Program-made: the position numbers and the translations under genes
Part shown: positions 18,941-59,854 of the stretch, piece after piece
Numbering within the stretch: position 1 is the first letter of the stretch
Layout of the letters: each line of letters begins with the position of its first letter
NCBI RefSeq assembly: GCF_032854445.1
Contig: NC_088295.1
Coordinates: 60,927,249 to 60,991,248 of the forward strand
Reading direction: 5' to 3'
Length of the DNA: 64,000 nucleotides
Source: Liolophura sinensis
Taxonomy: Eukaryota; Mollusca; Polyplacophora; Chitonida; Chitonidae
Notes under the pieces: generated by a model
Seen by the model: only the letters and a program-made list of their open reading frames with translations
Told to the model about the DNA's origin: nothing
Databases searched by the model: none

Positions 18941-19703
18941 TTATTTTGCTGCAGATGTGTCATAAAGCGCGTTATTCGAATAGTCATCATTAGACACAGG
19001 AAATGGCCTACAGAGTTCATAGCCGCCATCTTGGGCTGCCCTGCTGTTGTTGTTACTGTTTACATACAGGTTGGCGGCAATGTGACTACTGACGTCAGGG
19101 GTGTGTGAAGGAAGCCGCACAATGGGGTCTGTGGCGACATCCGGCGGGAATCGCGGGCGCCGCATTTCAGCTCGCACCCTGACACTTGGTACCTTTGGAG
19201 TAATCACAGCTGGATGAGAAGTAGAACTGTTTCTCCTTAGACTGTTCATCAACTCCTTCAGATCTGCCGTGTCGCCGTCACTGACGGACACTCCGCTACT
19301 TGTCACCGTGCAACCAGAAATCAAGCTGAGCATGTCTTCCTCGACAGTGAACGATCCACGTTTACTCGAGACGGGATCTGTCACTTCAGCCGTTTTTACG
19401 CATGGCGGATCTTCGACAATCATCACTCGGTGTTGACCGTTCTTGATGCGTTTCGCACTACCATATCGAATGGCTGGTTGTTTGTAAGGCATCGCGTAAA
19501 TTGGACTCTCGGAGCTATGCACGGATAGGGCTCTGTCTCGGGGTTCGGTCAACACGATGTTGGTCCTGCGGTTGGCTCGGGAAGGTCGCTGGAAACGGGG
19601 TGAAGATCGTTCCACGCACTCCACCTCCATCACCACAGGTTTGCTGTCCAGACGATCCGCCTTGATGAAACGAACCAGACCGTTCCCACGCGGACGGGAT
19701 CGA
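18941..19703 (-). CDS. Gene 1 exon 8: cytoplasmic tail and stop
   Basis: A 254-codon terminal exon from acceptor CTTTCAG at 19,704 to TAA at 18,941. It starts with a basic stretch (SRSRPRGNG) and carries tyrosine motifs IYAMPY, RYGS, LYVNS, GYELC, DYSNN and LYDTS. Two of these fit YxN, the class preferred by Grb2-type SH2 domains. No kinase, TIR or death domain is present. An AATAAA (18,945-18,940 on the minus strand) overlaps the stop codon. Confidence 0.8.
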
Positions 19704-22700
19704 CTGAAAGTGGAGAAAATATACAACATATACATAACGTAACGATAGTGTTGCTACATGTTCAAACTGAATAGTAGCCTCTATCATTAACAAGCTAACA
19801 ATATTTTATCCACCAAATTTCAATCAATTCACAAGATATATTGTAAATATCGACCATTTCTCTTAGTGAGATAGATACAGTCTTGGATTATATTTTAATG
19901 CTTCTGTCACGTAAGTATGTTTCTACACGGAATTAGCATCTACATATATACGCACATACATATATGTAAATATATCCGTTGAATCACATCATAACATGTC
20001 AAGTTGTTGAGCAGCACCTGACATTGGCATTCTAGTCCTATTGTCTATGTCCCTTAATTTATGCGGTTATTTCTTTGGTATCTAACACCATACAAAATAA
20101 TTTTCCACTGGTACCGTAATGGTGGGGAAAATGTGACCAGCTCTATGGACAGAGAATGGATAAAAATACAACTAATTCTGTGGGTGGAGAAAAGGCAACC
20201 ACTTCTATGCGTCAAAATAAAGAAGCCAGCTCTGTGGGTGGAGAAACAGCTGACAAAACACGAGAACAGAGCCTGTGACCACTTATTTGAACGTGACAAT
20301 TATGACCACCATTTCTCGCTTTGAGAAACAGCTGACAAAACACGAGAACAGAGCCTGTGACCACTTATTTGAACGTGACAATCATGACCTCCATTTCTCG
20401 CTTTGAGAAACAGCTGACAAAACACGAGAACAGAGCCTGTGACCACTTATTTGAACGTGACAATCATGACCTCCATTTCTGGCTTTGAGAAACAGCTGAC
20501 AAAACACGGGAACAGAGCCTGTGACCACTTATTTGAACGTGACAATCATGACCACCATTTCTCGCTTTGAGAAACAGCTGACAAAACACGAGAACAGAGC
20601 CTGTGACCACTTATTTGAACGTGACAACCATGACCTCCATTTCTGGCTTTGAGAAACAGCTGACAAAACACGAGAACAGAGCCTGTGACCATTTATTTGA
20701 ACGTGACAATCATGACCCCCATTTCTCGCTTTGAGAAACAGCTGACAAAACACGAGAACAGAGCCTGTGACCATTTATTTGAACGTGACAATCATGACCT
20801 CCATTTCTGGCTTTGAGAAACAGCTGACAAAACACGAGAACAGAGCCTGTGACCACTTATTTGAACGTGACAATCATGACCTCCATTTCTGGCTTTGAGA
20901 AACAGCTGACAAACCACGAGAACAGAGCCTGTGACCATTTATTTGAACGTGACAATCATGACCCCCATTCCTGTCTTTATAATCATGATAACAGTTTTTT
21001 TTCGTGTTCAGTTTCGATGCTGCATGGGCATTGTTCACTTAAATCACAAGTCACAAGTAAATCACGAAATTAAAGATACTTCTGCTCATAAAAACAAAGA
21101 CAGTTCTGCTTGCAAAGCAAAGATAGTTTTGCTTGCAAAGCTAAAGCAGTTCAGCTCCCAAACAAAGACAGTTCTGCTCTTAAAGCAAAAAGGTACGTGT
21201 AATTCACAGACGCTGTAATGTAATAGCAGTAGCCTGTTCCACAGAATGAGAGATTTTTTACTATCAGTGCTCAAGGGACACTTAAGACCTTGTTAAACAA
21301 ATTCTGTATGAGTAGCAAATGAGGATTCTAACTATAATTTGGGTTAGAATTTCACAACATTTAAGTTTAACCCAATAGAAATATTTCCCTATTTCTATGG
21401 GAAAAACTTAGATAGAATTTGTTGCCATATGACACACTCCTGAAAAGAGAAAAACAAGTATGAAAGAGATTGATATTTACCTCAAGAGCTTGGTGAACAA
21501 AACAAGCGAAGTAATGACGAACACAATGGCCACCACCCCGACTCCTGCTAGTGTTCCTGAATAAAATATGAGTCAGATTTTTATATGGCAGATGTTATTT
21601 TTTTGTTAAGTGGTGAACAAATGGAAAATAGAAAACAAACCATGCAAATGAAACAACTTTATCCCGTAATTGTATTATTCCAAGAGCACAAATAAATACA
21701 CTTGTTCCTGATCGTTTGATAGATTAACTGATTGATTGGTGATCGAACTCGACCTCAAGAATATGTCATATATGAAGGCCGTGATTCATGGCTGGTGAGA
21801 AGTGGTACCCAGAGGAGAGCTTTCCCAGGTAAACGTATGATACATGTACCCCGACAAGTTATACTTGTACATACCAGTTTCTCGTCTCTCTGCGACTTAA
21901 GTGTATACGCCATATTTTGGATTATAAAATATACTAGTGCAATTGCTTCCATAAAATATTTATGTAAAATACATGTAGGTCTTCGGCGCATCAGAAAATG
22001 TCAAATAAAGGTGAGAATGAGATGGATGAAGGCTGATTAACAAAATGACTTGCTCAGTAAATTCAAATTAAAACTTAAAATTCTTTACGAGATAAAACGA
22101 AAAAATGCTGAATAGGGGAGACAACTCGTACGGTCCTGAAAGCGTGAATTGCTATGGCGGTATAGAATATTAATTACTTAATTAACATACTCCTGCTGTA
22201 TTTTGTAGATACAGCATTGTGAATATGTAAACATGCTTTCTTTCCACATTAAGAACTCAGCATAACTCAGCATGTACAATGAACGTACAATGAATACCGT
22301 GCTGAACCAATGTAGGCCTACTGTATTGACGTGCCTTTCCTCTATAATAGGGCACAGTTGGTAGAGCGTCCGCTTCTGGAATGGTAGATCCAGGATCATT
22401 CCTGGGTCGAGTCACACCTTAGACTTTAAAAAGTTGTAACTTCCTCGCTTGGCGTTCAGCATGAAGGGGATAGTGCAACGACTGGTTGACATGTATCAGT
22501 ATAATGGCTCGGACGGGGCTGCTTACTTCCCCTCGGTAAGTGGTTTCAGTGAAGCAGCACTGGATGAAAGAGCCTAGGGATTACTTCGTTGTCATATGAC
22601 TGAAAAATTGTTGAGCACGACGTTAAACCCCAAGCGCTCACTCATTCACTCTGTCATAGGTTTGTGTGGTTTAAGACACATGTTTGTTTGCTTGATGGCT

Positions 22701-25700
22701 TTTTTTTCTCAGGGTTTGTTTCATTAAGGTTTGCTCGATGTTTGCTTGCTTTCGGCTTGTTTACTTGAGGTTCGTTGACTTAAGGTCTGTTCGCTCGCGG
22801 TTTATTTGTTTGGTATTTATTCGTTTGAGGTTCGTTTACTGGGAGTTCATTTGCTTGTGGTTTGTTTGCTTGGAGTTAGATTGCTTGGTTGTAGTCTGCA
22901 TGGTTGTAGTCGGCTTGGTTGTAGTGTACTTGGTTGTAGTCTGCTTGGGGTCTAAAGTGAATAATGTTACCACGAGGAAAACGGGCACGCTAAGTCACAA
23001 AACATTGACATCCACCATGCTGAGTACTGCTTGCTCGTACCAGGCTTTTAAACATTTCTCTATGACTCCAAACGACGAATCATCGAGATTGTGAGCTTTA
23101 TGCTCTTATGAAGGGCTGCGTGCAAGGAGGCGTGGAATTGAGCTCGCAAATTCCGTTTAAGACACTCAAAACAATACACTACGCCGATACAAATATACGT
23201 GTAAGCTCACCTATCAAAATAAACCTCTGTAGATGATGGGTTTCGTCAGACACTTCTTCTGCAAAAAAGATCAGATTATATTGGGGTAATGAATATATAA
23301 TGTATAGCCTCTTGAGTCACATAATTATTAAAATCGTTTTGTTGCTTGAATTTTGGCATTTCGAGGCAATAAGGAACGTATATTAACCAAAACAGCTCCA
23401 GAAAGAGTAAGCAATTTTTATGGGCCAAGGCATGGAAGCAAAATCTACAAAATAATATTTAATAAATTCTAGTAGGAGAAACGTCAGTAGACGATAGTTT
23501 TCAAAGAAGAATGAGGGTTTCTGTTTGCGCAGTAGCCTTCCCGGTATACCAGTCATGTGGTGCACAGATAAACTGTTATCTTACCCGCACACAGTTTTGG
23601 AGACACGGCCTGTGACTGGGTCCCACTCTTGTAGACCGGAACCACTGAAGTCGTGACTTCCGCTGGCAGGCCGACCACTCCGCCCGTTAACACTGCAGGA
23701 CAAATTAACATGAACTTTAACTGTACATGGAAAATGACTAATATGCTTTACTACGGTACCGGACATAGCAGTTAAGCTAGACACATATACTCATACTAGG
23801 GTAATGGCATTTATAACTTTGTTCAGAGAAAATCAAATTGTGACTCACGCATGGGCATACTAAAATTTACACCCAGATTTTTGGGGTAGTCTTTATCTTT
23901 AACTGTCAAAAGAAAATTGTCCATAAAAACACATTAAAAAATTTTCTTTGCAGAAACCTTGTGATCCATCAAATTTGACTTCCTTGCAGAAATATCAATA
24001 CAATCTGCATAGCTGCAATCGTACACGTCTATTGTCTTTTAAAATCCGTTAATCCTCTGTAGGTAAATCAGTAATTTCATGTGATTGTGTATTATCTGTG
24101 ATGAGAACACAGCATTTTGAGTACCGGTAACTCTATGCTGCTGAAGTCTAATAAACTGCAACTAACATCATTGCATTATTAACCCTATTCCGTGTAAACC
24201 ATGTGATATCTACGTTACTGCATGTACATGTACTTCCTAAGCATAAAGGTGAACAGTTAGAATAAAAACTCTGACTAGAGGCCAGATTTCAAAGATAATA
24301 TGTGTGACCATTTACCAACTACCACACTGTTATCACTGTTCTGTTCTGGTTTTACTCTCTATATTATGGCCTTTTGTATTGTTATTAATAATGTTCTACA
24401 GGTATAGTGCTTTTTTGTGAATATTAACTATGGAATATACGTGAACAGTTAGAATAAACCCTGACAAGTGGCCAGACTTAAACGATAATAGGTATGAACA
24501 TTTACAAACTATCAAACTGTTGTCACTGTTCTGGTTTTACTCTATATACTGTGGCCTTTTGTACTGTTATTTTTTTAAAGTGTGTACTACATCTATAGTG
24601 ATCTGTCACAAACAATGACTATCATAAACACTATTGAAACAAGTCGACAATCTAATCACAATGCCAAATGCTCTACGTTTTCGACATGAAACAGTAAATA
24701 ACCTTTAGTGCTGTATTGAGCTGTATTTGTAGTGAGTGTAGGCCTACTGGTCTGATAAGCCCGTGAAGTAGACTGGTAAGGAATCTCTGAAGTTGTTGTT
24801 GTCGTTGTCATTGTCGTTGCCTTTGTGGTAGGTTTTACATATCGATGAGACCCACATCCAAGTTGGCTTGGAATATTGTATTCTATATCTGCTTTCTTGG
24901 CATCGGTGACTACAGAAAAAGCAAAATATAAAAATGGAAATAATCAATGAATAAGCAGAGTAATAAAACCATGCAGACAAGATCTGACTGATACAAACGA
25001 ATCTCTGTATTGACATTGTAAATATCGTCCATGTATGAACTTATACAAAACACGCTGACCAACATGTTCAAAATGAACCGGGCTATAGTTGAAAGAGTTC
25101 AGGGTCTACTTTCCTAAAACTTCGCAAGTCATTTCTGGTATATATTTCTATCGTTGTCAATAAGTTTTAGTGGAATAAGGCGACGTGGTTTACGTGGACA
25201 GTTACGAAAACCTTTTTCACGATGTTTTGTGAAAATGATTTTAGTGGATAGTATAAGCAAATAAAATATTAGAAAAGCTAAAAAAAAAAATGATATGAGG
25301 TTCGTCAGAAAGGCAGCAGAAAAATATGGGTAAAACTGCTTTCATTCAAATTTTTAGATATTTAAAATATTGTTAAAGGCATTCAGATGTTTCAAATCTA
25401 TGGTGGCCCTCATGAACCATATAGCCGGTGTTTATGTTCTCAGCCGTCCAGTTCTCGACACACTGTGAATTGGTTGAAAATCTCTTATCACCCACGACTA
25501 AAAGATTACTTAAACGATTTTCTAAAAATTGTCTGTAGATGAATATAGGGAGAAAAAAGTGATGAAAACAGGGTACCTTATCACTGACAGTATGGAGTAC
25601 AAAGTCCACCTTATATTCAACAGTTGATTGCATTTAATTCAGTGGAACAAAACTCTACTAAAATAAGTAAACTTGTTTTTAGAGACAGTTTTCAATGGGT

Positions 25701-28700
25701 TTCTCCCTTGACGCTCTTTTCATTTTTACACGATCCTTTCGTTTAAACTTAATGTACGCTTCACACTTACCATGTCCTAAACCCGTGAACAACCTTGAGC
25801 CATGTTCCACAAACGAGCTAAGTAAACTGACTTAATAATTGGATAGTAAAGTTACTAGTTCCGTTACCATGGCGATTACCAAGACCGATATTAGCTGGTC
25901 TTAAATTACTTATTTGCACTATTATCGATAATTTGTAATTATTATCCGAGATCTGAGATTGCAGTTAACGGATGATGAGTTTGTCTTACATTGATAAGAA
26001 AACCACAGTCGTTCTTTAGGATTGACAGGTGTGAACCAGACTACGGCTCTCCTGGACCCTTCGGGCAATAAGATGGGTTCATGGGAATAAGATTCCTCGA
26101 CACCCGAGGGAACACCTGATGTCCCACAGAGCACGGAGGCAGGCAGGTGCTGATAAGACCCAGAAGTGTCCATGAACTGAAGCCTAAATGACGTCTCCCC
26201 TTCACACGATGCGCCTGGTCCAACGTAGAGATCGTTGACGCTCAGTGTTAGTCTGTTGCCACTTGGAATCGGGATACTCCATTGGCAGAAAGGTAACTTG
26301 ACGATGTCTCGTCTTGCAGGCTCGTCTGTGAAATTTGGGCTGAGAACATGTCGGTGAAAATCAGGTACGGGAAGTCGATGACCAGAACAAACGTCGTATA
26401 TTCTGTTCTCTAAAACAGAAGATTGTATTGATGTTACATGTGCTTGTTTTTGGACTGACTAATGAACCAAACAGACTGTTGATCATTGGACCGTTAGTGG
26501 TAAAACAGATCAAGAGCTTGATTTATCATAAAGCCTTTGCCTACCTAAGGAGCTAGGTCTCATGCTCAAATCCAGCTCCAGTAAAGCCTGGTGATTTAGT
26601 CTGGACACTCCGGTTTTTTGCACTGTCGTCGTCTTAGTGAAAATATACTTCAAATAAATATTTAAGTCGATCTCACTTACCTAAAATGTCAGGTACCTGA
26701 TGAAAAGGGTGGTGTATTTATAGAATTTCATTGGTTAAAAACCGATAAAAATAAGATAAATATTAAATAAAATGGGCTGTATTCCACAATATGTTCGTAG
26801 TGAAAACATTAGAGCCGGTCATTGTAAGCTCCACGTCTTGCTTAAAACAGCTGGCCAGGGCTGCTGGAAAACATTTTTATTCCAGTTCCGGTTTTATGTA
26901 GAGGATTTAGTTAGCATTTGATTCAAAACTGTATGATTTTGTGGGGGGTTTTTTTGTTTTCTGAGGAGTAAATTATCAGTAGCAATCAGCGTGAAACTGC
27001 ATGTTCAAGCGTTTTTGAGTAAGAGTTTCGCCCTTATACCACATTATAACTTGATGACGCAAGTCGGTATTATTATTATATTAAAAGTATGTTTGAAAGT
27101 AAAAACAAATGTTGCAAAGTTAAGTAATTTGATATGTTGTATTATAGGTCTACTCAACGTGCACGAGGAAGTAAACACTTGCTGGAGAGGGTAGGGGAGA
27201 GAAGAGGGGGAAAGGCAATATGTGATGACGTCAAGGCCTGCGTGACTATAGAAAATGTGAGCTAACTTAGTAGGCTAACCTGTACAAATTTGGTATTAGC
27301 TTTACAGGATTTCCTACATTCCTAGAAAGCAAATCACTTTATTCCAGTGCATATGCTACGCCATGAACACGAATCCCCAAATAAACGCCTGTAAATCAGT
27401 GATATCAGATTTCTGTTCCGGGAAGGGAAATAAACTGAGATAATGTAAAATGTGCAATCTTGCTTCAAGTTTTAATTTCCTTCTTTAGTTACAAGGGAAA
27501 ATTTATTAGTCATAAGGTTGTTGTGTAACTTTGATAAGAACAGTAATATAGTGTTTGCCATATATGTATGAAAATTTACACATGAAAAGAAAACAAAAGC
27601 AGACAAAAAATTGAATTTAACTGAATTTAGTTACATATTCTTTGCACCCGTCTCCACTAGAAACCGACTTACGTTTTAAGAATTTCCTCGACATTTATAA
27701 GTGACTGAACAATATTTATCAACATGGAAGGACTGGTGCGAAAAGAAATCTCCAGTCCTATCAATATTTTTGTTAGTTATGAGGTCCTACACGGCACTAA
27801 CCTCATTACTATAAGAGTATAGCTAAGGTGACCCGTCCGCGTTTGATTTATTTATTCATTTTATTGGTGTTTTACACCGAATACACAAGAATATTTCACT
27901 TATAAGACGTTGGCCAAAATTATGGTGGGAGAAAATTTAACAGAGCCAGGGGACATACCCAGGGCCATCCACAGGTTTGCTGACAGACCACCCCACGTAC
28001 GACAGGAGAGGAAGCCAGCATAAGCTGGACTTGTATTCACTGCGAGCGCATTGGTGAGAGGCTGCTAGGTCATTGGGCTGCTCTCACTCTAACCACTTAT
28101 TCCCGAGTCACTTCACACATAAAAAATTGACAATACTGGTCGATATAAGTATGAAGGGACGGGCCCAAGTATTGATAAACGACCTTGATATTTTCTGAGT
28201 GGAGCAAACATATGTAAAAGTCAAGTCCCGGACAACTTTGTGCTGATGCAACTGATGCGGGTGTCCTGTCTGGTGTCTTCGTCGTGACCTTCCGCTGAGG
28301 CAGCACTACAAATGTGTCGGCATTAACATCGATCTGATACTTGAAAATCGAAATAAAGTTGAAAGCAACGTTAAGTCGCAAGCCGGCAAGCCAACTTGCT
28401 ATATTGTGGCCATCTGTTCTAGGAAAGAGTGGGGGGAGTGGGCGTGGTAGGGTGATATTACCGGTGTACAATAGCTGAACATTGATCATGATACGAATAT
28501 TGTCCAACTGGTGTAATGCAATTAAAATCTCCCTTTATATCAATACCAATGGTTATTTGCCGTGTCTATTGTGGTCTTTATATCTATAGGAGGGTAAATT
28601 CGACACTTTGCCGTCTACAATGACGCCGAAATTCATGCCTATGTCAAGGTAAATTACCCCCGTCCTTCTCAGTGATACATTTAAATTTTTGATTGTTGGC

Positions 28701-30080
28701 TTGGTGTAGTTTACCTTGTATACAGTTGTAAATCACCTCCATTTTCTCCGAGGCTTTAAACTCTGGCGTCATTTGGCAGCACTGTCTCTGTATTTGTCTT
28801 AGTAAATGTTCTTGACACGAAGTTCTTGCGTTACACACTTTGGCCAGCAGATTGAAAACCCCAGCTTTGGTGCAGGACCCCAATGCTGGAGAACTTCCAG
28901 AAGAAATGAGGACATCTCGCAGAAGAATGACCCCATGTCCTTCCGGGCACTGTGGGGTATTACCCTGGGATTTACATATGTCAACGGAACAAAGGTCACC
29001 TGGGGTAACAAATAAGGAGAAAAATGTGAAACTATCTATATTCACCTCATGCCAAATTATTCGAAATCACCGGACTAGGATGCATGCAATCTGTTATAAT
29101 ATAAAAATATTACAGCATAGACGGTAAAACCAGAACAGTGACGAAAGTCTTTCGAGAATCATATATCACTATTTTAAACTGTCTGAAGCAAATTAAATTG
29201 TTGCTTTTGTAAATCATATAAACAATACGTATTACGACATAACCAATCATGTACGAAACGACCACAGCATATAGAGTAAAACCAAATCAGCGACCACAGT
29301 GTTTTGCATGTACCTCAGTCAGTTTTTATTCCGGTTGTTCAAAAGTATATGCTTAAAAAGTTGCAACGTACGCGCTCGTTAGCACCGTGACTTAAGCAGA
29401 ATTTGGTTAAAACGAGCAACGGTGTTAGTTGCCGTTTGTTGGACATCGCTGGTCTAGAATTACTCAATATCCTACTCAAGAATACAATACCAGAAGACCA
29501 CTGCTTGGAGCAGTAAAAGCACCACATTGACGACAGCTTGATAGTGTGATACCCATATCACGTGAGAAGCCATATCATTTATCTGAAGTTATACGAGGGT
29601 TGGTCGAGGGTTTCCCCCAGGCTCTTTCCGGTTTCCTCACACGATAATGCTGGTCACCGTCGTACAAGTGAGATATTCTTGAATACAACGTAAAACACCA
29701 ATTGATTAATTAAGTTATCTAAAAAATCATTTGGTTTCTTACAATATCCTTGTTTCTTTTCTTCAATGTTTTCAGATTTGAGGCGTGCAACCTGTTTGTT
29801 GTCTAAGATGTATTATAAGTAATAGTACTGTTGACTTACAATAAAAACATCTGCACGTCGTCTTTCCACAAAACACTGTAACTGCAACGGTTTCATTCAC
29901 TAAACAAGTCAGAGTTTAGCTAGTAATATTTAAATCAGCTTGAAAACTATTTCTATGAAACTATAGCGGGCAAATCAAAATTTCATTCTTACCTTTCGTG
30001 ACATGGAAAACGTGCTGATATTGAATGAAATAAAGAAGCAAACTTATCGAGCAGTGGTATCTTCGTCCCATTCTATACAT
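18941..30080 (-). CDS. Gene 1: single-pass receptor with SUEL-lectin-like and CUB domains and a Tyr-containing tail (8 exons)
   Basis: The inferred CDS joins 30080-29993, 28999-28715, 26409-25990, 24909-24703, 23692-23585, 23258-23211, 21556-21481 and 19703-18941. All introns are GT/AG, and the sum is 1,995 nt (664 residues plus stop). Every junction up to the transmembrane exon is phase 1 and the last is phase 2. The order is signal peptide, SUEL-like lectin domain, CUB, Thr-rich stalk, transmembrane helix, and a cytoplasmic tail with seven tyrosines. Type I plasma-membrane topology is inferred. Genes 2 and 3 share the modules and phases, which supports the model. Ligand and function are unknown. 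SUEL and CUB modules usually bind glycans or proteins outside the cell, and the tail could recruit SH2 proteins. Uncertain points are the donor of exon 4 (24,703 or 24,748) and a possible missed exon between 26,410 and 28,714. Confidence 0.75.
20239..20975. repeat. 82-bp tandem repeat in intron 7 of gene 1
   Basis: About nine copies of an 82-bp unit (gagaaacagctgacaaaaca, cgagaacagagcctgtgacc, tatttgaacgtgacaatcat), from the wholly repetitive block between the transmembrane and tail exons of gene 1. Copies differ by a few bases. Confidence 0.93.
21481..21556 (-). CDS. Gene 1 exon 7: transmembrane helix
   Basis: It lies between TTTTATTCAG and AG|GTAAAT. Translated from phase 1 it reads TLAGVGVVAIVFVITSLVLF followed by TKLL, a typical 20-23 residue hydrophobic helix with a basic inner flank. 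It leaves in phase 2, exactly as the transmembrane exons of genes 2 and 3 do. Confidence 0.85.
22345..22655 (+). mobile_element. SINE family B copy in intron 6 of gene 1
   Basis: It has a tRNA-like head (gggcacagttggtagagcgt; B-box-like ggatcattcctgg), then the family body and a gctcactcattcact tail. An internal deletion removes the ccgtcctgcaacaagg segment present at 4,165-4,504. It lies antisense to gene 1. Confidence 0.85.
22690..22965. repeat. Degenerate short-period repeat
   Basis: Loosely repeated GGTTTGTTTGCTTG, AGGTTCGTT and TTGGTTGTAGTC units of about 15-18 bp. It is an old low-complexity array in intron 6 of gene 1. The hydrophobic open frame across it (RFVDLRSVRSRF-type) is an artefact. 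Confidence 0.7.
23211..23258 (-). CDS. Gene 1 exon 6: short stalk exon
   Basis: A 16-codon phase 1-1 exon between TTTTTTGCAG and G|GTGAGC, reading EEVSDETHHLQRFILI. It is kept because both splice sites are strong and its phase matches both neighbours. It could be optional, since skipping it leaves the frame intact. Confidence 0.55.
23585..23692 (-). CDS. Gene 1 exon 5: stalk
   Basis: A 36-codon phase 1-1 exon (acceptor CTGCAG, donor G|GTAAGA). In the phase set by its neighbours it reads LTGGVVGLPAEVTTSVVPVY and ends SPKLCA, so it continues the low-complexity stalk. Another frame is also open, but its phase does not match. Confidence 0.55.
24249..24610. repeat. About 190-bp direct tandem duplication (intron of gene 1)
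   Basis: Two adjacent copies begin gtgaacagttagaataaa at 24,249 and 24,441. They run together through ggttttactct and ggccttttgta with moderate divergence. Confidence 0.8.
24703..24909 (-). CDS. Gene 1 exon 4: Thr-rich stalk
   Basis: The acceptor CTGTAG leads into frame TDAKKADIEYNIP and then a threonine-rich run (TTKATTMTTTTTTSE), a likely O-glycosylated stalk. The donor is ambiguous: G|GTTATT at 24,703 and A|GTAGGC at 24,748 are both phase 1 and keep the frame. A different reading frame across the exon is also open but fits neither neighbour's phase. Confidence 0.6.
25990..26409 (-). CDS. Gene 1 exon 3: CUB domain
   Basis: This is a 140-codon phase 1-1 exon (acceptor TTTTAG, donor T|GTAAGA). 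CUB hallmarks are in order: first Cys (YDVCSG), HVLSPNF (family gxixSPnxP), FCQWSIPIPSGNRLTLSV (family CxWxIxxPxGxxIxLxf), a third Cys (GASCEG), and VLCG (family lCG). The domain closes with a hydrophobic strand (RLWFSYQ). Residues equivalent to the calcium-site acids of cbEGF-type CUBs are not obvious. Confidence 0.8.
27843..28092 (-). mobile_element. SINE family A copy, minus strand (intron of gene 1)
   Basis: Reverse complement of the family: an attggtgttttacaccga end, the aagacgttggccaaaattat block, the ggtttgctgacagacc block, agcataagctggact, then a degenerate tRNA head near ggctgctaggtcattggg. It is well diverged and in the same orientation as gene 1. Confidence 0.85.
28715..28999 (-). 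CDS. Gene 1 exon 2: SUEL/rhamnose-binding-lectin-like domain
   Basis: This is a 95-codon phase 1-1 exon with acceptor CCCCAG and donor G|GTAAAC. The cysteine layout follows the SUEL (Gal_Lectin) pattern: CPEGHGVILL at the start, a later isolated Cys, then VCNARTSC (family CnGkxxC), a further Cys-Cys, and VIYNC at the end (family VxYxC). The YGR sugar-contact motif of classical SUEL domains is not evident, so binding specificity, or whether it binds sugar at all, is open. Confidence 0.65.
29488..29580 (-). repeat. Hydrophobic-leader-like repeat family, copy near gene 1 exon 1
   Basis: On the minus strand it reads as a 33-residue frame starting MASHVIWVSHYQAVVNVVLL and continuing hydrophobically. 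Related sequences, all on the minus strand, occur at about 3,233-3,345, 29,268-29,305, 30,488-30,570 and 30,783-30,895, and share a YHTVV.AL VLLYMLxVF-like frame. They may be old duplicated first exons of secreted or membrane proteins, or a dispersed repeat; no splice pattern was confirmed. Confidence 0.4.
29590..29712 (+). mobile_element. SINE family A, 3' fragment (intron 1 of gene 1)
   Basis: Only the 3' half of the family is present: gagggtttcccccaggctct, tgctggtcaccgtcgtacaa, gtaaaacaccaattgatt. Confidence 0.8.
29993..30080 (-). CDS. Gene 1 exon 1: signal peptide
   Basis: ATG at 30,080 (a second in-frame ATG at 30,071) opens a basic start (MYRMGRRYHC) and a hydrophobic core (SISLLLYFIQ). 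The exon ends at a good donor (G|GTAAGA) in phase 1, and joining to exon 2 gives a mature start near GDLCSVDIC. Either ATG could be used. No strong promoter element was recognised upstream, although a TATATAAG-like string lies at about 30,095, too near the ATG to be convincing. Confidence 0.75.
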
Positions 30081-30782
30081 AAAAATGTCCACAATGTATA
30101 TAAGGGCGGCTGTCACAGTTCAAAAAGACAGAAATGTTGGCACAAAGGTTTGATTTTAAAACGTGGCCATTGACAAGCGGAAGTCTGGAGAGTCCCGAGC
30201 GTGCTGCGGATCATGTTGCCAGGCGTACTGGGGCGAGCACATTTAGTGCAAAGCATCCTGTCTATGTGGCCAACTTGGCCGTGACTTTGAAGCAATCTAA
30301 GTTTACGTACATCTCATTGCACTGTTTGTGAAGAGCATCAAACATATGCCAATTATTAGCGACGGATGCTCAACTCAACAAGTGCAAAGTATCAAGTCTA
30401 ACCAATTAAGACTTGGCTTCGGTGTAAAATTTATGTTTGCTACTCCAAAAGGACTTTGAACTTTAGAGCGAAGTATCAATCGTAATTAAAGACCCATAAC
30501 ATAGAGAGTAAGACCTGAGCAGGGACGACAGCGTAATAGCTGAAAAATGGTCACCGGTAATCCGTGAAGAACGGCCCCTTGTCAATGTAAAGGCATAAAT
30601 AGCAGCAATTTACACGCCCTCTAGTACCATAGCTTAAGGGGAATAGGTTAAAACAATGCAGTGATGCTGATTGCAATTTGTTATACATCTCTGCTTTAGA
30701 TTTACTCAAAATGCTGTGTTTTCATCACATTTAACATACAGTCACAAGGAAACAAATCTGGAAATCGGGGAATCTGGAATAT

Positions 30783-30895
30783 GCAAGAATACAGTATAAT
30801 TAAAGACGCACAGCATATAGAGTAAGACCAGAGCAGGGACGACAGTGTGATAGCTGGCAAATGGTCACACGTAATCGGTGAAATGCAGCCTCTTG
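30783..30895 (-). repeat. Hydrophobic-leader-like repeat family, distal copy
   Basis: It closely resembles 3,233-3,345 over gagtaa[ga]accag, gcgacgacagtgtgatag and ggtcacacgtaa. A third version lies at 30,488-30,570. Three copies around the 5' end of gene 1 and one 27 kb away suggest a small repeat family or remnants of duplicated first exons. Confidence 0.5.
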
Positions 30896-30899
30896 TCAA

Positions 30900-39088: not shown

Positions 39089-39159
<71 letters not shown>

Positions 39160-45908: not shown

Positions 45909-45984
45909 TTTCTTCTCAAAATCTTATGCTAAATATATGTATAAAACACAATCCACTGCCATTAAACCACTCCTCACAGATATC

Positions 45985-50140: not shown

Positions 50141-51717
50141 TAATACTTTTATGTTAACGTCTTTTAACGTAAGAAAGTGCAAATAATTAAAGGACTCGAA
50201 ACAGCATCTCCATACAGACAGTCACTTTATTCCACTCGCTTCATCACCTTGAGCAATCCCGCACTATGTTACTTACGTAATATTAGCCAATCTCTATGCT
50301 GGAACGTCCTGAATATTAATATAGGGGAGCTGATCATGTGATGTAAACATACACATGTTCTATGATGTAAACAAATGCACGTGGCAAACTATGACAATAT
50401 CACACACGGCTTATTAAACAAAACATATCTGACACTTTGAAAGTTGTGTGTGTGTGTTTTCATTTAATTTTTCTAACCATTTCACTTATACCACTCGTGC
50501 TGCATGTTCTCACTCGTCTTTCGAAACTGATATAAAGGTTTTATCAACTGCTGTCTTTTCTTTCAAGTCAGGTACCTGGAGAAGGGCTCTGGGGGTTTGG
50601 GAAGGACAATTACTGATTCAATCCAGCCATAAACCCTACCACAGTCATATGAGTGAAAACTTCTTGACAACAATGAAGTCAAAGATAAATAAGTCAAAAA
50701 AATACCAATTAGGAGAATCAAGTTAGTCCTCGGTGTAGTCTCTGTATACCCTAACTCTTACACATGTACTATGGTAGAATGAGAGTATATACTCACTACT
50801 GAGTCATTGTCAGTTTTATAGTGCAGGAAGTTATTTCCCTATTAGTATGCATCCTCCTCTTTAGGCGAAATACGGCTCACGTGAGTTAAAATGCGCACAG
50901 TGTCGCGGTGACCTAATACTTCGTAACTTAGGAGAATTAAGTTAGTAAAAAACATATGACGAATGAAAATCTCGACAGATACAACATAATAACTAATAGT
51001 ATTAATATCAATAAAGACTTTCGGTTCCCATAAAACTCTTCAAAATAATACAAGTGATTGTTTCCGAAACATGTACAGAAAGTGTATACATACAGTATAT
51101 ACATATGTGTGTGATTTTACAATGTATACAGGCACATGTAGGCCTACAGTTCAGCAAAGACATAAACATGCGTACGTGTATATACAGGAATGTAATATAG
51201 AACAAACAATAGCATATAAACCTCCAAATGTCTTAAAAGAAATAACACACATGTCCATATGCCTAGATCATTACGTCATATCCATGAACGACACGAGGCA
51301 GGAAGCTATAAAGAAATCATGACCATCCTAATGAATAGTAAATACGTTAGGTCATGAATCTCCATGGCTGGTAGCCCTAGAAAATAATTTATGTACGTTT
51401 CACATATATATTCTTCACTAGTCAAAAAAAATATGTATTTCTATGATGACTTCGCCTTGATTTGGCTGAAATACTGCTCACGTGTGGTAAAGGCATAATG
51501 TGCATGTATGTCAGTAATGACCTTAATTTATCACAAAACTAATAACACGCCTGAATCACAACAATCGAACCAAACAGGTTTTCTGTTCTTGCACTTATAA
51601 AGCTCGACATACACAAGAATTTATAAAGGTTAAGATCTGAAGTGTAACTATAAGATATAAAAAACTGAAAGATATACTATAGGCTTAATCACATCAGTAA
51701 CTGTATATGCATGTACG
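50141..51717. other. 3' flank of gene 3
   Basis: Counterpart of the gene 2 flank. It includes about 350 bp (50,150-50,700) more diverged from unit A, then near-identity from 50,740. No gene recognised. Confidence 0.5.
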
Positions 51718-52162
51718 TTACTTTTGCACAACTGCCTTTTCACAGCCCTGTATGACCATATGTTTAATATCGGGCTCTGTTACCGCGTTTGTGCAGTCAT
51801 TGTAAGTAACTGGCGGGTTTGCATCAGTGCTGTTCACATTTTCATAATACTGGGGAGACAGGCGCTTTACTATCGGTATTTGCAGTTCGTCGTAGGTATG
51901 CCTGTCTGTGTCGCTTGTTATCTGCAAGGCAACATAAGGTGATCCGGGCTCTACTCCGATTACCTCATAGGTATTACGACTTTCGATCTGCGCCATTTGA
52001 CTGGCCACTGCAGACGAGTCATTGACACAGCTGTATGTGGCATTGTTCTCCAGTCCGCCGGTTGCAGCCAGCGGCACGCCTGAGGTGGAACTCATCATCA
52101 GGTTGTCGTCGCCGGTAGCTTCCCTCTGTTCCCCTTGACCGGCAGATTTTCTGACTGATCGG
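51718..52162 (-). CDS. Gene 3 exon 7: cytoplasmic tail
   Basis: 148 codons including the stop when read in the gene 2 phase. Motifs are TYSCV, TYEVI, PYVAL, TYDELQI, YYENV and TYNDC. The C-terminal tyrosine of gene 2 (EYAVV) is lysine here (EKAVV). It remains open although the upstream exon shifts the frame. Confidence 0.6.
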
Positions 52163-52477
52163 CTGAAATATAGAGAAGTATTCAATACTGATCCGGTTAA
52201 ACCTTTATAATTTTCTACATCCATGATGTGTATATTAACTTATTAAAGGAAAAAAAAACAAAGTTGTTTCTCTCCCTACACTAAGTACATATATGGATAT
52301 TTGCACTGACGGTTTAGCAACATCTTCCCTGATGTAAAGCCCTCCATAGACATTTAGACACGTCGCAAGTAGTACTTTGACGCCACAATACATCAATCGT
52401 TTAGATGCGTCGCATGTAGTGTGTGTGTGTATATATATATATAATATATATATATTATATATATATATATATATATA

Positions 52478-52512
<35 letters not shown>

Positions 52513-55500
52513 GTCTGTTTGTGGCGAGACCGATGCTCTTTGCAAATGAATCAGAGAGAATCCATTTAAAGGTTAAATTTGTTTTTATAAGTGAATTATT
52601 AGTTCAGGAGGACGTTCAAAGGCCATAAGAAGTGCGCTCACCAGATATTTATATAAATATAAATATAATATCTATATAAATATCTGGTGAGCGGAACTTT
52701 TTATGGCCTTTGAACGTCGTCCTGAACTAATAATTCACTTATAAAAAACAAATTTAACCTTTTAAATGGATTCGCGCGCTAGCACAGCGTAATGACCCAG
52801 AGTCTCTCACCAATGCGGTCGCTGTGAGTTCAAGTCAGCTCATGCTGGCTTCCTCTCCGGCCGTACGTGGGAAGGTCTGCACAGCAACCTGTGGATGGTC
52901 GGTGGGTTTCCTCCGGGCTCTGCCCGGTTTCCTCCCACCATAATGCTGGCCGCCGTCGTTATAAGTGAAATATTCTTGAGTACGGCGTAAAACACCAATC
53001 AAATAAATAAATAAATAAATTTAATGGATTCTCTGATTCATTTGCATAGAGCATCGGACTCGCACAAACAATCAGTCCTTGACCAGTGAGGTCACGTACT
53101 TGATCTCTTCAAGTGTGAAGGTCTGTCACGTAGGCCTACCTTGCGAAAAGGCGGCAATTTACACCGGACTCAAGCTTGGTTTCCTTCTCCCATACACGTC
53201 ACTATCGTCGTATAAGCGAAATAATCCAGCAAACGGCGTTAAACTTTTTAAATAAACAAATAATTTTAACGTATAAAAATAGGACTTACCGCCGCCATGA
53301 GACAATGACGATGACCAACGACTAGGATTATCAGCAAAAACCCTGCAGCCACAGCTGAAGCAAGTATTACCGTCTTGTCTAAAACACATTCAACCCCATT
53401 TGTATATTCAAGTTAATACAATCAGAGCAAAACATTATGCTATATTGGCATTCATACATCATCACCTAAAAAATCACCTAAAAACATGTAGCAAATTTCA
53501 GACGTGAATTTTCATATGCTGTGGCATATGCTTCTCAGTTTAAATTCCATATCCAGAGAATTATTGGCTAATTATCAACCCAAATAATGGGTTTCTGATT
53601 TATATATTAGACCTATTTTTATACATATAGAGACCTATTTTTGTATATTTTGTAATAATAGCTGAAAAATCCGACCAAAAAAGAAGTCTTCACTCGCCCA
53701 AATTCATAGATAAGGGAAGATTTTGTCAGCTGTGGTGGAGAGTCAACAGTCACCGAGCGAGTTTAAGGTGTTTCTTTAATCGGCTTCAAACAGTATGTAT
53801 TGTACACGTATATGTACGTGTAGAAAGAGGTGATTGCGTGAATCTATAGATAATAAATTAACTATGAGTTGATTGGCAGTGTCTGTGAACAGGTTTTAAC
53901 GCAATTACGGACATTTTGAGTGAAAGATTGTTGAAAAGCCAAAATTTATTGTACATGTATACTAGTAATATCAGAAGTACATCAACAGAAAGAAGTTTGA
54001 CACTGCACTGCAAGTGGTCATTTTGACCAGAAGCTATTGTGACGACCTAATGGCCTGCATTCCCTTGAGTAAGTCTTGTTAAACTGTGTTTGTTTTCTGT
54101 ATATTGCATAATCTTTATCAACTGAATTTAAGATATCGTTACCTACAATTAAAATTCTTAACATCAGTCCGCACAATACCGTTGTTGTACGTGAATGCTG
54201 TCCAGATGATATGTGAAGGTTAATATCTCATATTGGTGAACAATGCACAGCCACCCATGCACAAGATAAAGATATTACTTTTTAACTGTCTATTTCTCGC
54301 CAACCATGTCAAAACTTTCGTGTAACAAAAAGTGTGCTTGATTCATGAAACAGGGGTCTCCGATCTTAGCCGTGGGATTTTCTTTAAATTGTACAATGCC
54401 CCGAAGATTTTAAACCGTGAAATCAAAAGACGTTTGCGTGATTTCTAAAGTTCAGTTTCTAGATTTATATTTGTATAACAGCTACTGGTCCAGAATTGTG
54501 TACAAGAAAGCTTTTACCTGTACGTCTGTGACGTTATTTACAAATCTAACAGATCACTTACAAATCCGAGGGCCTGTCAAACATCTTATATTGCTTACTT
54601 ACACATTTGAGAGACTGTTTAAAACGTCTGAAATTACTATAAAACTGAGAGATTAATTGCAATTCCGTGAGATTTCTTGTTTCCAACCGGAGAGATTGTT
54701 AAATGTCTACGAGTTCTTACGAATTTAAGAGATCACTTACAAATCTGAGAGATTTCTGACATATCTGAGAGGATTCTGACAAATCTAAGAGATTACATGT
54801 ACTTACAAATCCATAAGATTACACTTTCAAACCTGAGAGATTGTGAAAAATTGGAGATTACTTACAAATCTGAGCGATTACTTACAAATCAGAGCGATTA
54901 CTTACAAATCAGAGCGATTACTTACAAATCAGAGTGATTACTTACAAATCAGAGTGATTAATATATATCAGACAAATGCAACACCGTACCCTTTCCAACA
55001 GAAGGTGTCGAGTTTGGTCCTGGTCTATGTGTTACATTTTTGTCCAATTGCCCCTCCGTTTCATTTACGGTGGAGTATCAGTGTACAGTTGACCCTGTCA
55101 GCGAATTTGTCCATAACGGTGTCAGTTTCGCTGACGTTCCCAGTGGAACTGCATGAGAGTATTCTGACAAATCTAAGAGCTTACATGTACTTACAAATCT
55201 ATAAGATTATACTTTCAAACTTGAGAGATTGTGAAAAATCTAAGCTACTACTTACAAATCTGTGCGATTGCATACAAATCTGAGCTATTAATATATATAT
55301 AAGACAAACGTACTACCGTACCCTTTCCAGCAGAAGGCGTTGAGTTTGATTGTGGTCGACGTCTTACAGTTTTGTCCAATTGCACCTCCGTTTCATTTAC
55401 GGTGGAGTATCCGTGTACTGTTGACCCCTTTGTTGACACTGTCAGCGAATTTGTAGATAACGATGTCGGTGTCTGTGACGTTCCCAGTGGCCGTGTAGAT

Positions 55501-58500
55501 GACGTTAGATAAGACTTTTCATATACTGGTATGCTTGTGTCCTTATTTGAGGATACACGTCCAGTGGTACATTCCGACCTATCTCCCAAAGGTATGTCTT
55601 CCTCTCTTAAATTTTTGGGATTCCACTCATTGGAGAGATTATCTTTCAAATTGCAAGTTTCCGGATATTCTGAGGCAATCAAAAAAAAGCATTTATATGG
55701 CAAAAATTGCTGCATTTTTGTACTGAACTGTGGAAGAGATATAGAATTTTTTGTATTGTTTGGCAGAGTTGTCTTTGTTTTTCAATGCCTGTCTACCCTT
55801 AACTGAAATATTTGCCTTTGGTGATTCCGTATATATTTTACATTTGAATTTAATACCAGCCGATTGTAGGGAAAAAAATGGTGTCTTTTCTCTTTATCCA
55901 ACTGTCTATGAACACAAAACTATCAACTGGATATCATTTACACGAACAGTGGTATGGTCTCTTACACATGTATATATGATGTATTCTGTGGTGGCTAAAT
56001 GATAACATATCTGTGGTGGTTAATAATATCATATCTGTGGTGGTTAATGATATCATATCTGTGGTGGTTAATGATATCATGTATGTGGTGGTTAACGATA
56101 TCATGCCTGTGGTGCCTAAAGATATCATGTCTGTGGTGCTTAATAATATCATGTCTGTGGTGGTTAATAATATCATATCTGTGGTGGTTAATGATATCAT
56201 ATCTGTGGTGGTTAATGATATCAAGTCTGTGGTGGTTAATGATATCATATCTATGGTGGTTAATAATATCATATCTATGCTGGTTAATGATATCATATCT
56301 ATGGTGGTTAATGATATCATGCGTGTGGTGGCTAAATGATATCATATCTATGGTGGTAAATGATATCATGTCTGTGGTATCTAAATGATGTCATAAACAA
56401 GTCTACTTACCGAATATGGTAATCCACAATGAGCTGAACTTCACCAAACACGTACAGTTTACAAGTAGGCTGAATTCCTGAGTCGAACTCACTTGAGAAA
56501 AAGCATTTTTGGACTTTCTATCTGGTAAATATTTATGTTCTCCTGCTCCGTCGACCAAAGTTACAGCACTACAATCATCAGGGGCTGAGTGTTTGAGTTT
56601 AAAGTAGTTCAGGCCAATAACGAAAGGCTTAGAGGGTTTCACACTAGCGATGGCAACGTTCTTACAGACTTCGTCAGTCAGAAAAATTTGAAAGTTCGCT
56701 GTTTTATTCAGGTAAAGCACACCTTTTAGGGGTTCTCTGATACTCTTGAAGGACGAAACTGAAATCACAACGTGACAAGCACACATAACTGATACTATTG
56801 GCCTACATGTATGATCACACCAAAATGTACTTACCTATCATTTGACAAGCTTGACAAGTTTACAATAATTGACAGCAAACTTATATTGCTTTGATCAATA
56901 GAAACGCTGCTCAAGTTTGTATTTTCCTGATTCCCTCATGTACTGCTACTCAACAAAGTTACTGTGCAAAAATATATTGATCTTCCATTTTCGGATACCT
57001 ACCGATTTTTTCTGTCTTTTATCGTATAGCAGCCTGTTAACAATGAGCAGACAAAAAATGGTTATCTAAGTCATCTCGCTCAGGTGTTTTCAAGGTTTCT
57101 CTCTAGCCATTGCCTCAACTCTTTGGGCTGGCGTGCGCATGCTTTTTGTAATGGATCGATGTCTAGGTCATTAAAAAGTGTTTGTCCGTACTTTAAGACA
57201 ATTCATCTGCATGCTAATCAGAGGTACATGTAGATATCGCCTTGTAGCATCACTGGTAAATCCACACGAACATAAAGCTGGCAGAAATTAGAGACATTCC
57301 AATTCTAGCCTCGTTTGAAAGCATACTCCTAACACCGCAGGGAACCATGGATACAAGAAATGTCACAGGCACCATCAAAAAGATTGATCTCTCATCCTGT
57401 GTGCCACACATGCATGGGGTCAATACTGCAATGTCCATTCATCAATAAAAAGATCTTTTTGTTTGGGACTGGCCTTGTTCAAGAGTTTTATACAACAATC
57501 ATTAGCGGGGCAGGAGAAACTAATGCAGAAACTTGGCCATACCTTATCTGACATGCATATTTCCATGGGTACGTATTAAAACATCTAGGGGCCTCCGTGG
57601 CTCAGTCGGTTAAAGCGCTAGCGCAGCGTAATGACCCAGGAGTCTCTCACCAATGCGGTCGCTGTGAGTTCAAGTCCAGCTCATGCTGGCGGCCGTACGT
57701 GAGAAGGTCTGACAGCAACCTGCGGATGGTCGTGGGTTTCCCCCGGGCTCTGCCCGCTTTCCACCCACCATAATGCTGGCCGCCGTCGTATAAGTGAAAT
57801 ATTCTTGAGTACGGCGTAAAACACCAATCAAAAAAAAAAAAATTAAAACATATTAGCCACACTAACACAACCTTTTGTGTGTGAAAAGGACCTCGTAACG
57901 GTACATTTCTGAATTCCTCGGCGCTTCACGCCTCGTACTGTACTTTCTTATCCACGAATACACAGTTACTAGGCCTTTCTCCACACCTAACAATTTGTTC
58001 TATTTCAGCCTTTATAGTTTTGTCTCGTGTATATTTACATGTATCAGTTACTTCTTTGAGTGAGGACGGACACTTTCCAATGACCCCGTCATCGATCCAC
58101 CTATAAAAGTACCTGCCCGAGGTAGGTTGGAACCCACACATCGCATCTCCTGCAGATTTAGAGGCAAGACGCCTTGGTCCACCGCAAATATTTTCTTATT
58201 ATGTGATGATACCATTGCCATCTGCAGATAATTTCCTGTTGCGGCATTGGTGCTACCCGATCGAAGTGGTATTTGCGGTAAATTTACGCGGTAAAAATCA
58301 AGTATAACTGCACAATCACTGCCGTGAACACGTATTGATTCGATATTTATTTGTACTCAAACGCCTTGACAAACTGCTAAGTCATGTCAAGTCATGCAGA
58401 CGTCTGTTTGTGTCTGTGGCATGTTCTTGGTGTACCTATAGACCTATACGCCTATATCATTGATTCGAACCAGATCTTGTAATTTAGACCACCAACAAGT

Positions 58501-59854
58501 AAAACAGATAGTAATGCCAATTGTTGCTTCAGCACACCTGCACGGATCGGGCCTTACACTAGCATTACGTGGCCAGTGTATTTTTTGCGTATGTTTCTCA
58601 GTTTTCGACTGGAAGCTGTTCTCTGGTCTCTGTAAAGTTTCAGATGTTACAAAGAATGCACGAAATTTTGTGAATTGTGAGTGATTGCCGATTTTTTTTT
58701 ACCGTGCTGTAACCTGGGAGATGTGCAGTTGTTTCTTTACGGAAGACTCGGAGCTGTCATGCGCACTCCAACCTCGGATGTACAGTACCTTTTAATGTAC
58801 ACTTACCAGACACACAACTGTACTGTATCCTTCCTGATTTACGAGATTTAGTACAGCTGGTCAGTAGCGTGTTTGTTTCTTCACATTTCCTACGGCCTTC
58901 ACATAGACGGATAAATTCATCGATACCATGATTCTGATTATGACCCGTGCCTGTCCCAGAATGAATAAATAACACATCCCGCGCACTTTTACATTTGGGG
59001 AATACTTGATTACAAATATTAGTTCTACAGGCGCCTTGAGCTGAGGAATCTGTATGGAAACAAAAAAACAACAACAAAATACGGAAAGTTTATTTAGTTA
59101 TTTACTTCATTTTTCATAATAGGCTACAAACTGAATGCAAATAATAAACCATTCCGTGATGTCAGGTTTCTAATTCAGTGACGACTGGCTGTCTCGAGGC
59201 GGCACCAGCCAACAGAATCCGCCGTATAACAAAAAGAGCCATTTACCATTTTGCCACGTTTTCAAGATTCCCATAAATGAACATATATAGGTAAGAATTA
59301 CAGAGATATAGAAATTTCACTAATTTTTATATTTTTAGGAGCCTGTAATCCACAGATGTTTGGCAAGTAACCACATGTGACGTATACATAGCGTTTCTTA
59401 ATTATTTCATTAGTGTTTTACGCCGTACTCAAAAATATTTTACTTATCCGACGGCGGCCAACATTATGGAGGAAGGAAACCCATGATCTTCTGCAGGTTT
59501 TTGCCAGATCTTCCCACTTACGGCCGGAGAGGAAGTCAGCATAAGCTGAGCTTGAAATCACGGCGACCGCGTAGGTGAGAGGCTCCTGGGTCATTAGTCT
59601 GCGTTAGCGCGCTATCCAACTGAGCCATGTAGAATAGCGCTAATACACCGCAACGGACGGCTTGGTTAGAGAGGAGTCACACTGCGCTGGAAATGACAGT
59701 TATAGCGACAGCATTGTGCATAGGGCTTAATACAAAAGGCATACATGTACAAAAGGCACCAAGTGACTGTGTACTTACCTCGTATTAAAACATAGAAAAT
59801 GATTATCCAGTAGGGTAAATACACACATATGATCGTGTTGGCAGCACCCTTCAT
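51718..59854 (-). CDS. Gene 3: tandem paralogue of gene 2, transmembrane exon frameshifted
   Basis: Exons by homology and splice sites: 59854-59779, 59049-58807, optional 58149-57926, 56758-56411, 55669-55322, 53378-53290 and 52162-51718. The module order and phases are those of gene 2. The transmembrane exon is 89 nt rather than 88, because of an extra C near 53,315, which puts the tail exon out of frame. The optional exon 3, broken in gene 2, is open here and ends in TGA, so a soluble lectin-only product is possible. The tail exon itself remains open over 148 codons, so the lesion is recent or an assembly error. Confidence 0.65.
52427..52511. repeat. Interrupted (TA)n/(GT)n tract
   Basis: A few GT units followed by TA runs with taatata interruptions. 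It borders the fold-back palindrome. Confidence 0.9.
52512..53075. repeat. Fold-back palindrome with a SINE nested in its right arm
   Basis: The left arm (52,512 to about 52,655: gaccgatgctctttgcaaat, gaatccatttaaagg, ttagttcagga, cgttcaaaggccataa, cgctcaccagatattta) is matched in reverse complement on the right. The outermost right part (attcatttgcatagagcatc) exists as single-copy sequence in unit A at about 39,158, so it is ancestral, and its left-hand mirror is the new copy. Arm length is about 145 bp around an AT-rich centre. Confidence 0.85.
52771..53026 (+). mobile_element. SINE family A, 5'-truncated, nested in the palindrome
   Basis: It begins within the tRNA head (cgcgctagcacagcgtaatg) and runs through the family body to an AAATA tail. 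The palindrome arm text (aaatggatt / taatggatt) is duplicated on both sides, so the SINE entered after the palindrome formed. Confidence 0.9.
53290..53378 (-). pseudogene. Gene 3 exon 6: transmembrane exon with +1 frameshift
   Basis: It starts as in gene 2 (KTVILASAVAAG then FLLIILVV). An extra C (gatgaccaacg against gatgacaacg, near 53,315) then turns the end into GHRHCLMAA and changes the exit phase. Read on into the tail exon, the frame stops after about 50 codons. The truncated hydrophobic segment might still anchor the protein. Confidence 0.65.
54540..54965. repeat. Short tandem repeat (about 18-20 bp), unit B
   Basis: ttacaaatcagagcgattac and ttacaaatctgagagatt units, with more of the agagcgatt type than in unit A. 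Confidence 0.85.
54990..55163 (-). pseudogene. Dead duplicate of the stalk exon (gene 3)
   Basis: Counterpart of 41,213-41,386, with the same TGA in place of GGA and the same donor. Confidence 0.7.
55322..55669 (-). CDS. Gene 3 exon 5: Ser/Thr-rich stalk
   Basis: 348 nt, phase 1-1, four differences from gene 2, all replacements (D/N, C/Y, S/N, T/R). One replacement removes an unpaired cysteine. Confidence 0.75.
55985..56395. repeat. 24-bp minisatellite (unit B)
   Basis: About 17 copies of the gtggttaatgatatcatatc-type unit; counterpart of 42,245-42,715 with a different copy number. Confidence 0.93.
56411..56758 (-). CDS. Gene 3 exon 4: CUB-like domain
   Basis: 348 nt, phase 1-1, aligned without indels to gene 2. 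About 12 nucleotide differences, of which only about two are silent. Changes include KK/SI-type replacements at the start (FKSIREP) and LRIF to FQIF. Confidence 0.65.
57588..57843 (+). mobile_element. SINE family A, young insertion in gene 3 intron with an empty site in gene 2
   Basis: A full-length head (gcctccgtggctcagtcggt) to a poly-A-like end, flanked by attaaaacat[ca]t direct repeats. The corresponding unit A sequence (43,894-43,908, attaaaacatctaagccac) is an uninterrupted empty site. The insertion therefore postdates the tandem duplication. Confidence 0.95.
57926..58149 (-). CDS. Gene 3 optional exon 3: Cys-rich module ending in a stop
   Basis: From acceptor ATCTGCAG (phase 1) it reads GDAMCGFQPTSGRYFYRWID, then GKCPSS, VTDTCKYT, IVRCGERPSNC, ending VQYEA and TGA. 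It could be a terminal exon giving a secreted protein of signal peptide + lectin + this module, or an internal exon using a weak phase 1 donor (AACT|GTGTAT). The module may be a second, truncated SUEL-like unit. Its counterpart in gene 2 is frameshifted. Confidence 0.5.
58807..59049 (-). CDS. Gene 3 exon 2: SUEL-lectin-like domain
   Basis: 243 nt, phase 1-1. Same cysteine frame as gene 2, with replacements clustered around the CEG loop (GRRKCEE against GRTECKE) and before the final strand (RKSGRIQ against REAGSIQ). These positions could be ligand-facing loops. Confidence 0.65.
59405..59635 (-). mobile_element. SINE family A copy, minus strand (intron 1 of gene 3)
   Basis: Counterpart of 45,478-45,708, with the same ends and orientation. 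Confidence 0.9.
59779..59854 (-). CDS. Gene 3 exon 1: signal peptide
   Basis: ATG at 59,854. MKGAANTIICVYLPYWIIIF then YVLIR, donor G|GTAAGT, phase 1. Confidence 0.8.

Follow-up and report, generated by a model that had tools for sequence, protein, structure and literature searches.

The window analysed here, a 64,000-nt stretch of the Liolophura sinensis genome (G000:C1:60927249-60991248 of the 609-Mb assembly), holds three minus-strand gene models (A, B and C) built on one exon plan, which we read, with a probability of roughly 45%, as three type I single-pass receptor genes that descend from one ancestral plan, with putative tyrosine docking sites in B. The plan would comprise a signal peptide, a divergent SUEL (rhamnose-binding-lectin) fold, a second secreted module (CUB-like in A), a Ser/Thr stalk, a transmembrane (TM) segment and a cytoplasmic tail; the exon plan, the intron phases, the tandem duplication of B and C, the Tyr motifs of B and C and the frameshift of C were read directly from the sequence. 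On this reading, the locus is a small and divergent offshoot of the single-pass SUEL receptors that has undergone one recent duplication. The three genes were modelled from their exons as follows:

18941-28999 plus an uncertain first exon, minus strand: gene A
38361-45908, minus strand: gene B
51718-59854, minus strand: gene C

The exons of all three genes were flanked by AG acceptors and GT donors (the donors of the stalk exons being weak), and a single TM exon was present in each gene model. In A and B, every intron as far as the TM exon had phase 1, and the intron ahead of the tail exon had phase 2; C followed the same plan except for its TM exon, whose exit phase mismatched the C tail. When length alone was considered, only the tail frame of A was beyond chance (270 codons; such a length was obtained in none of 60 simulated sequences), and the frames of the other exons were not (expected number of frames, about 0.17 for 178 codons and 1.1 for 140 codons). 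The gene anatomy is judged to be largely real. The first-pass annotation had described a shared architecture with matching intron phases in three genes: the exon plan, splice sites, stalk and TM exon held, the phases were compatible throughout A and B, and the exceptions were the join between the TM and tail exons of C and the signal exon of A, which is tentative. The sizes given there for the SUEL-like exons (95 codons in A and 81 in B and C) and the stalk and TM exons in every gene were confirmed. The exons of gene A were assigned as follows:

29993-30080, minus strand: tentative signal-peptide exon (ATG, hydrophobic stretch, phase-1 donor; weak)
28715-28999, minus strand: SUEL-like exon (95 codons, phase 1-1, 9 Cys; assigned with hhalign)
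25990-26409, minus strand: CUB-like exon (4 Cys; SPNF, CQWSI, LCG)
24703-24909, minus strand: Ser/Thr stalk exon (37% S+T; weak donor GTTATT)
21481-21556, minus strand: transmembrane exon (phase 1-2)
18941-19703, minus strand: cytoplasmic tail exon (253 residues past the split codon, 7 Tyr, no YxxV/I/L, two YxN)

The signal exon of A was the sole candidate above the cut-off of the script within 29000-38200, in a scan weighted for splice donors, and the first codon of the gene model was completed with an assumed G. Genes B and C were assigned the following exons:

45833-45908, minus strand: gene B first exon (hydrophobic start)
44874-45116, minus strand: gene B SUEL-like exon (81 codons, phase 1-1; assigned by the B/C profile against PDB SUEL domains)
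42734-43081, minus strand: gene B third module (CUB-like in the first-pass annotation; not above shuffles against CUB)
41561-41908, minus strand: gene B Ser/Thr stalk exon (32% S+T; weak donor GTACGG)
41214-41369, minus strand: decayed partial second copy of the B stalk exon (in-frame stop; 71% identity over 56 residues)
39338-39425, minus strand: gene B transmembrane exon (phase 1-2)
38361-38808, minus strand: gene B tail exon (YSCV, YDVI, YDEL, YENV, YAVV)
59779-59854, minus strand: gene C first exon (start exon, homologous to that of B)
58807-59049, minus strand: gene C SUEL-like exon (all nine differences from B nonsynonymous)
56411-56758, minus strand: gene C third module, like that of B (exon model)
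55322-55669, minus strand: gene C stalk exon (30% S+T; weak donor GTACGG)
54991-55146, minus strand: decayed partial second copy of the C stalk exon (in-frame stop; 70% identity over 56 residues)
53290-53378, minus strand: gene C transmembrane exon (one extra base relative to B; frameshift)
51925-51969, minus strand: ITAM-spaced YEVI-x7-YVAL in the C tail exon, beyond the frameshift
51718-52162, minus strand: gene C tail exon (frame equivalent to that of B open; out of frame with the C TM exon)

The start exons of B and C each consist of 25 codons plus one base; the hydrophobicity cut-off was passed by that of C and not by that of B. An additional exon of B and C at about 43979-44209 was considered and rejected; frame-changing gaps between B and C lie just upstream, and no well-spliced phase-1 exon was recognized by eye. 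The B tail exon ends in an 89-base tandem duplication (38258-38436) that was not seen in C and whose second copy lies beyond the stop codon. Elsewhere in the window and its flanks, a dispersed repeat some 250 bases long was found in many copies (7925-8196, 52767-53017, 57583-57843, 27846-28074, 35983-36191 and others); it resembles molluscan SINEs; tRNA and Rfam scans were empty, for this repeat included. A frame at 15739-15987 (minus strand), without a Pfam match at E<=0.1, resembles part of a LINE reverse transcriptase.

The N-terminal modules were compared with solved SUEL domains by hhalign. The SUEL exon of A scored 23.2 against PDB SUEL domains (probability, 21%), a score that one full shuffle in 200 and no Cys-keeping shuffle in 200 attained, and the B/C profile scored 21.2 (probability, 13%; 0 of 200 and 1 of 200, respectively); the similarity thus exceeds chance for A and for B/C separately, although the hhalign probabilities are low. 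When a SUEL exon from elsewhere in the same genome was added to the profile, A aligned over 79 columns with a score of 24.8 and B/C fell to 20.4; against that exon alone, both gave scores of 13.0-15.1, near background. In the HMMER/Pfam check that the first-pass annotation had proposed, no exon of A, B or C matched PF02140 (Gal_Lectin) or PF00431 (CUB) at E<=10, the Pfam scan of the exons returned only unrelated families below the cut-off, and positive controls from the same genome reached 35.3 and 39.9 bits with PF02140. PDB sequence searches with the A SUEL exon, the A CUB exon and profile A8 gave no SUEL or CUB match, and the structure predicted from the SUEL alignment A8 was unusable (pLDDT, 42). 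On these comparisons, SUEL-like modules are weakly indicated in A and, separately, in B/C; the module claimed earlier stands by profile score above shuffles and not by Pfam or PDB sequence match.

The SUEL-like exon has 9 Cys in A and 7 in B; the Pfam SUEL profile has 7, and the skeleton of latrophilin is described with 8 (passages in PMC2430599). In the joint alignment, C41, C50, C115 and C128 were matched and C71 was not, C83 was absent from B and C, and the alignment of B/C alone differed. The residues equivalent to the sugar contacts of latrophilin (Glu42, Tyr63, Gly117 and Lys120) were replaced or gapped in A and B in an alignment-dependent manner; B has Asp at 42 (joint alignment), and C has Lys at 120 (alignment-dependent). 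The label "lectin" used previously is therefore doubtful. Receptor SUEL domains, including that of EVA-1, are described as having lost the sugar-contact residues (passages in PMC2430599), and the N-terminal modules of A, B and C would bind a protein or glycoprotein ligand rather than rhamnose. Gene A appears to be only distantly related to B and C: the SUEL-like exons of A and B were weakly alike (E=0.001 in a two-sequence comparison; hhalign probability, 1.9%), and no similarity was detectable between their CUB-like exons or between their tails.

The CUB or CUB-like module announced for all three genes is plausible as CUB in A, where the four Cys (positions 7, 41, 68 and 94) match the conserved four-Cys pattern of CUB domains and a weak model points the same way. 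The corresponding third module of B and C had no Pfam match and scored 10.86 against four neuropilin CUB domains, a score attained by 100 of 200 shuffles, and its identification as CUB is unsupported.

B and C are a recent tandem duplicate pair (about 36989-47311 versus 50667-61342; blastn blocks of 86.8-95.4% identity), with 2.8% substitutions in the introns (137/4862). The stop codon of the decayed stalk-exon copies lies at the same aligned place in both genes, and the duplication of the stalk exon is therefore probably older than that of the gene. The extra base in the TM exon of C places the C tail out of frame; as joined, the frame leaves the TM segment early and terminates after a short, mostly basic stretch. 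This base is either a recent mutation or an assembly error, and it makes C a decaying, tail-less or wrongly assembled copy; C is probably compromised, most likely a partner of B that is decaying or lacks a tail, and B is the best candidate for a working receptor with putative tyrosine docking sites.

It is somewhat doubtful, yet deserves weight, that both copies have drifted neutrally since the duplication, the frameshift in C being real and A being the sole working gene. The overall dN/dS of about 1.1 (dN 0.056, dS 0.050) is near the neutral value of 1, the SUEL (3.7%) and CUB-like (3.4%) exons diverged at or above the intron rate, and the frameshift and the decayed stalk copies are in the same direction. 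No indel separated B and C in four of the six exons (1,015 nt), as compared with 35 events in 4,862 aligned intron bases (P=0.0025, a test that omits the TM and tail exons), but the difference was lost when all six exons were counted (5 in 1,551 nt; P=0.096, not significant), and a test of frameshifting indels with the TM exon included gave P=0.07. Tandem repeats were dropped from the intron count by the coordinates of B only, and simple repeats may inflate the intron indels. A length constraint on the exons is hence suggested, not proved, and the indel difference was rejected as proof of function; with this dN/dS and the six-exon P value, selection on B and C is not demonstrated. Decay of both genes is opposed by the four indel-free exons, by the lack of any stop in the 480 codons over which the homologous frames were compared (TM exon excluded), and by the tail exon of C, in which frame-balancing indels leave the frame equivalent to that of B open and most Tyr motifs are retained.

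With the tail and TM exons set aside, the differences between B and C comprised 23 nonsynonymous and 3 synonymous changes, and seven of the nine nonsynonymous differences in the SUEL-like exon change charge. The 23:3 excess would suit a rapidly evolving set of paired receptors for gamete or self recognition, like fester/FcoR of Botryllus, as would the differences of the paralogues in ectodomain and signalling motif, which resemble those of some FcoR alleles (passages in PMC12065747). Such a role is quite unlikely, since the excess was significant in no exon (P=0.10 for the SUEL-like exon), a result on which positive selection was also rejected, and since only three genes were found, of which C is frameshifted. 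The tail was the most divergent exon (10.7%, about four times the introns; dN 0.128, dS 0.149; about 39 nonsynonymous and 14 synonymous differences), which gene conversion of the remainder or an exchanged tail would explain.

The claim of tyrosine tails made for the three genes held for B and C and not for A. Five of the six Tyr in the B tail lie in YxxV/I/L motifs (P=0.0004, 5,000 shuffles), and the C tail exon, out of frame with its TM exon, has five such motifs among seven Tyr (P=0.002); none of the seven Tyr in A is so placed. YENV of B is also a Grb2-type YxN site, and motifs of the form YxxV/I/L are known in adaptor-dependent sorting as well. No tested ITAM, ITIM, ITSM, hemITAM or NPXY pattern was found in the B tail. 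Yxx(L/I)-x6-12-Yxx(L/I) was absent from the tails of A and B and occurs in C only out of frame, as YEVI-x7-YVAL (a motif held by 590 of 100,000 shuffles) with an overlapping wider pair (the wider pattern being held by 1,255 of 100,000); B has Ser at the position of the second Tyr. A young activating/inhibitory pair of invertebrate receptors with SUEL-type ectodomains, in which one copy had an ITAM-spaced and the other a motif-shifted tail and the ligand module changed charge, is a very improbable reading of B and C; SPYVAL of the C tail exon also fits the ITIM pattern, so that activating is not the sole reading of that tail. On our preferred reading of three single-pass receptors, clustering would lead Src-family kinases to phosphorylate the YxxV/I/L Tyr of B (and those of C, should its tail ever be in frame), and the phosphorylated Tyr of B might dock SH2 proteins or a clathrin adaptor; A would signal, if at all, in another way, through its two YxN sites. 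SFK-ITAM-Syk-type signalling is described in invertebrates for Draper with Src42A and Shark (passages in PMC4503800), and the ITIM, hemITAM and core YxxI/L/V motifs described for Botryllus have counterparts among Hydractinia candidates (passages in PMC12065747).

Relatives were sought in the same genome. At E<=0.01 the A SUEL exon had no match but its own (B and C were missed), the B CUB-like exon matched B and C only, and the matches of the B tail were confined to B, to C and to a short repeat of the end of that exon (both at E<=0.1); these protein searches detect close relatives only. In the 20-kb flanks on each side, tblastn with 11 exon queries found nothing at E<=0.05; with the exons of the window as queries, it missed even Pfam-level SUEL exons of the same genome. 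The family size is a lower bound. In non-animal collections, no confirmed match was obtained for the A CUB exon (genome contigs) or the B SUEL and CUB-like exons (viral contigs). A large form of the lineage-specific family envisaged at first was not seen, nor was an expanded immune family, the close relatives of the three searched exons being confined to the cluster. With PF02140, five exons were found elsewhere in the genome at three loci: two at C1:17.6 Mb with a same-strand FAM176-like frame (E 6e-6, below the Pfam cut-off), two at C7:1.63 Mb, followed at a distance of about 10 kb by a downstream GPS frame that may belong to a separate gene, and one (Pfam 35.3 bits) at C1 about 47.461-47.470 Mb on the minus strand, followed by a stalk, a TM segment and a tail with one Tyr. 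The last gene has phases 1-1-1-2 and a candidate signal frame, with no CUB-like exon in the frame list, so that the plan of A, B and C is of a known kind in this genome. Among the literature matches listed, no SUEL-plus-CUB single-pass receptor appeared; one paper on zebrafish adhesion GPCRs contains both domain names (PMC4335454).

It is unlikely that the three genes are EVA-1-like guidance or adhesion co-receptors, in which the SUEL ectodomains would have a secreted guidance protein as their ligand and the tail Tyr would only tune adhesion or endocytosis. Guidance receptors are not usually known for recent duplication or rapid change, each gene has one SUEL-like exon rather than two, no FAM176 match was obtained, and the two-SUEL/FAM176-like locus is separate; for this role speaks the adaptor-sorting character of YxxV/I/L. 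Single-pass SUEL receptors with protein ligands, which also speak for it, are known, EVA-1 and SLT-1 being the described pair (passages in PMC2430599). Immune, gamete and guidance roles are all conceivable for the three genes, and the non-self or mucosal recognition proposed at first is speculative. If expressed, a SUEL single-pass receptor with Tyr docking motifs would join the latrophilin, EVA-1 and PKD1-like proteins, and it is suggested that such receptors may duplicate and change quickly; the B/C pair would be a compact natural test of how an ITAM-type motif comes or goes with a single Tyr. Should C be broken and B drifting, the locus would be a case of ordinary duplicate decay.

Among known systems, EVA-1/EVA1C (two SUEL domains, one TM segment and a FAM176 tail) is alike in having a SUEL ectodomain with lost sugar contacts on a single-pass protein, whereas A, B and C have an extra module and a stalk, and an EVA-1-like locus lies apart in this genome (C1:17.6 Mb). 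Latrophilins (SUEL, GAIN/GPS and 7TM) share the N-terminal SUEL fold as a receptor module, but A, B and C carry a single TM exon, and the SUEL/GPS frames are on another contig. From CUB receptors (neuropilin, Neto and cubilin) the B/C module differs in having no sequence support above shuffles. Draper, Hydractinia Alr and Botryllus FcoR share YxxV/I/L motifs and the ITAM spacing of the C tail exon; their ectodomains are different, B has no ITAM, and that of C is out of frame. The SUEL-stalk-TM locus at C1 about 47.46 Mb differs in its one-Tyr tail, its SUEL exon recognized by Pfam and its lack of a CUB-like exon, and it is alike in the signal frame, the one SUEL exon, the stalk, the TM segment and the phases.
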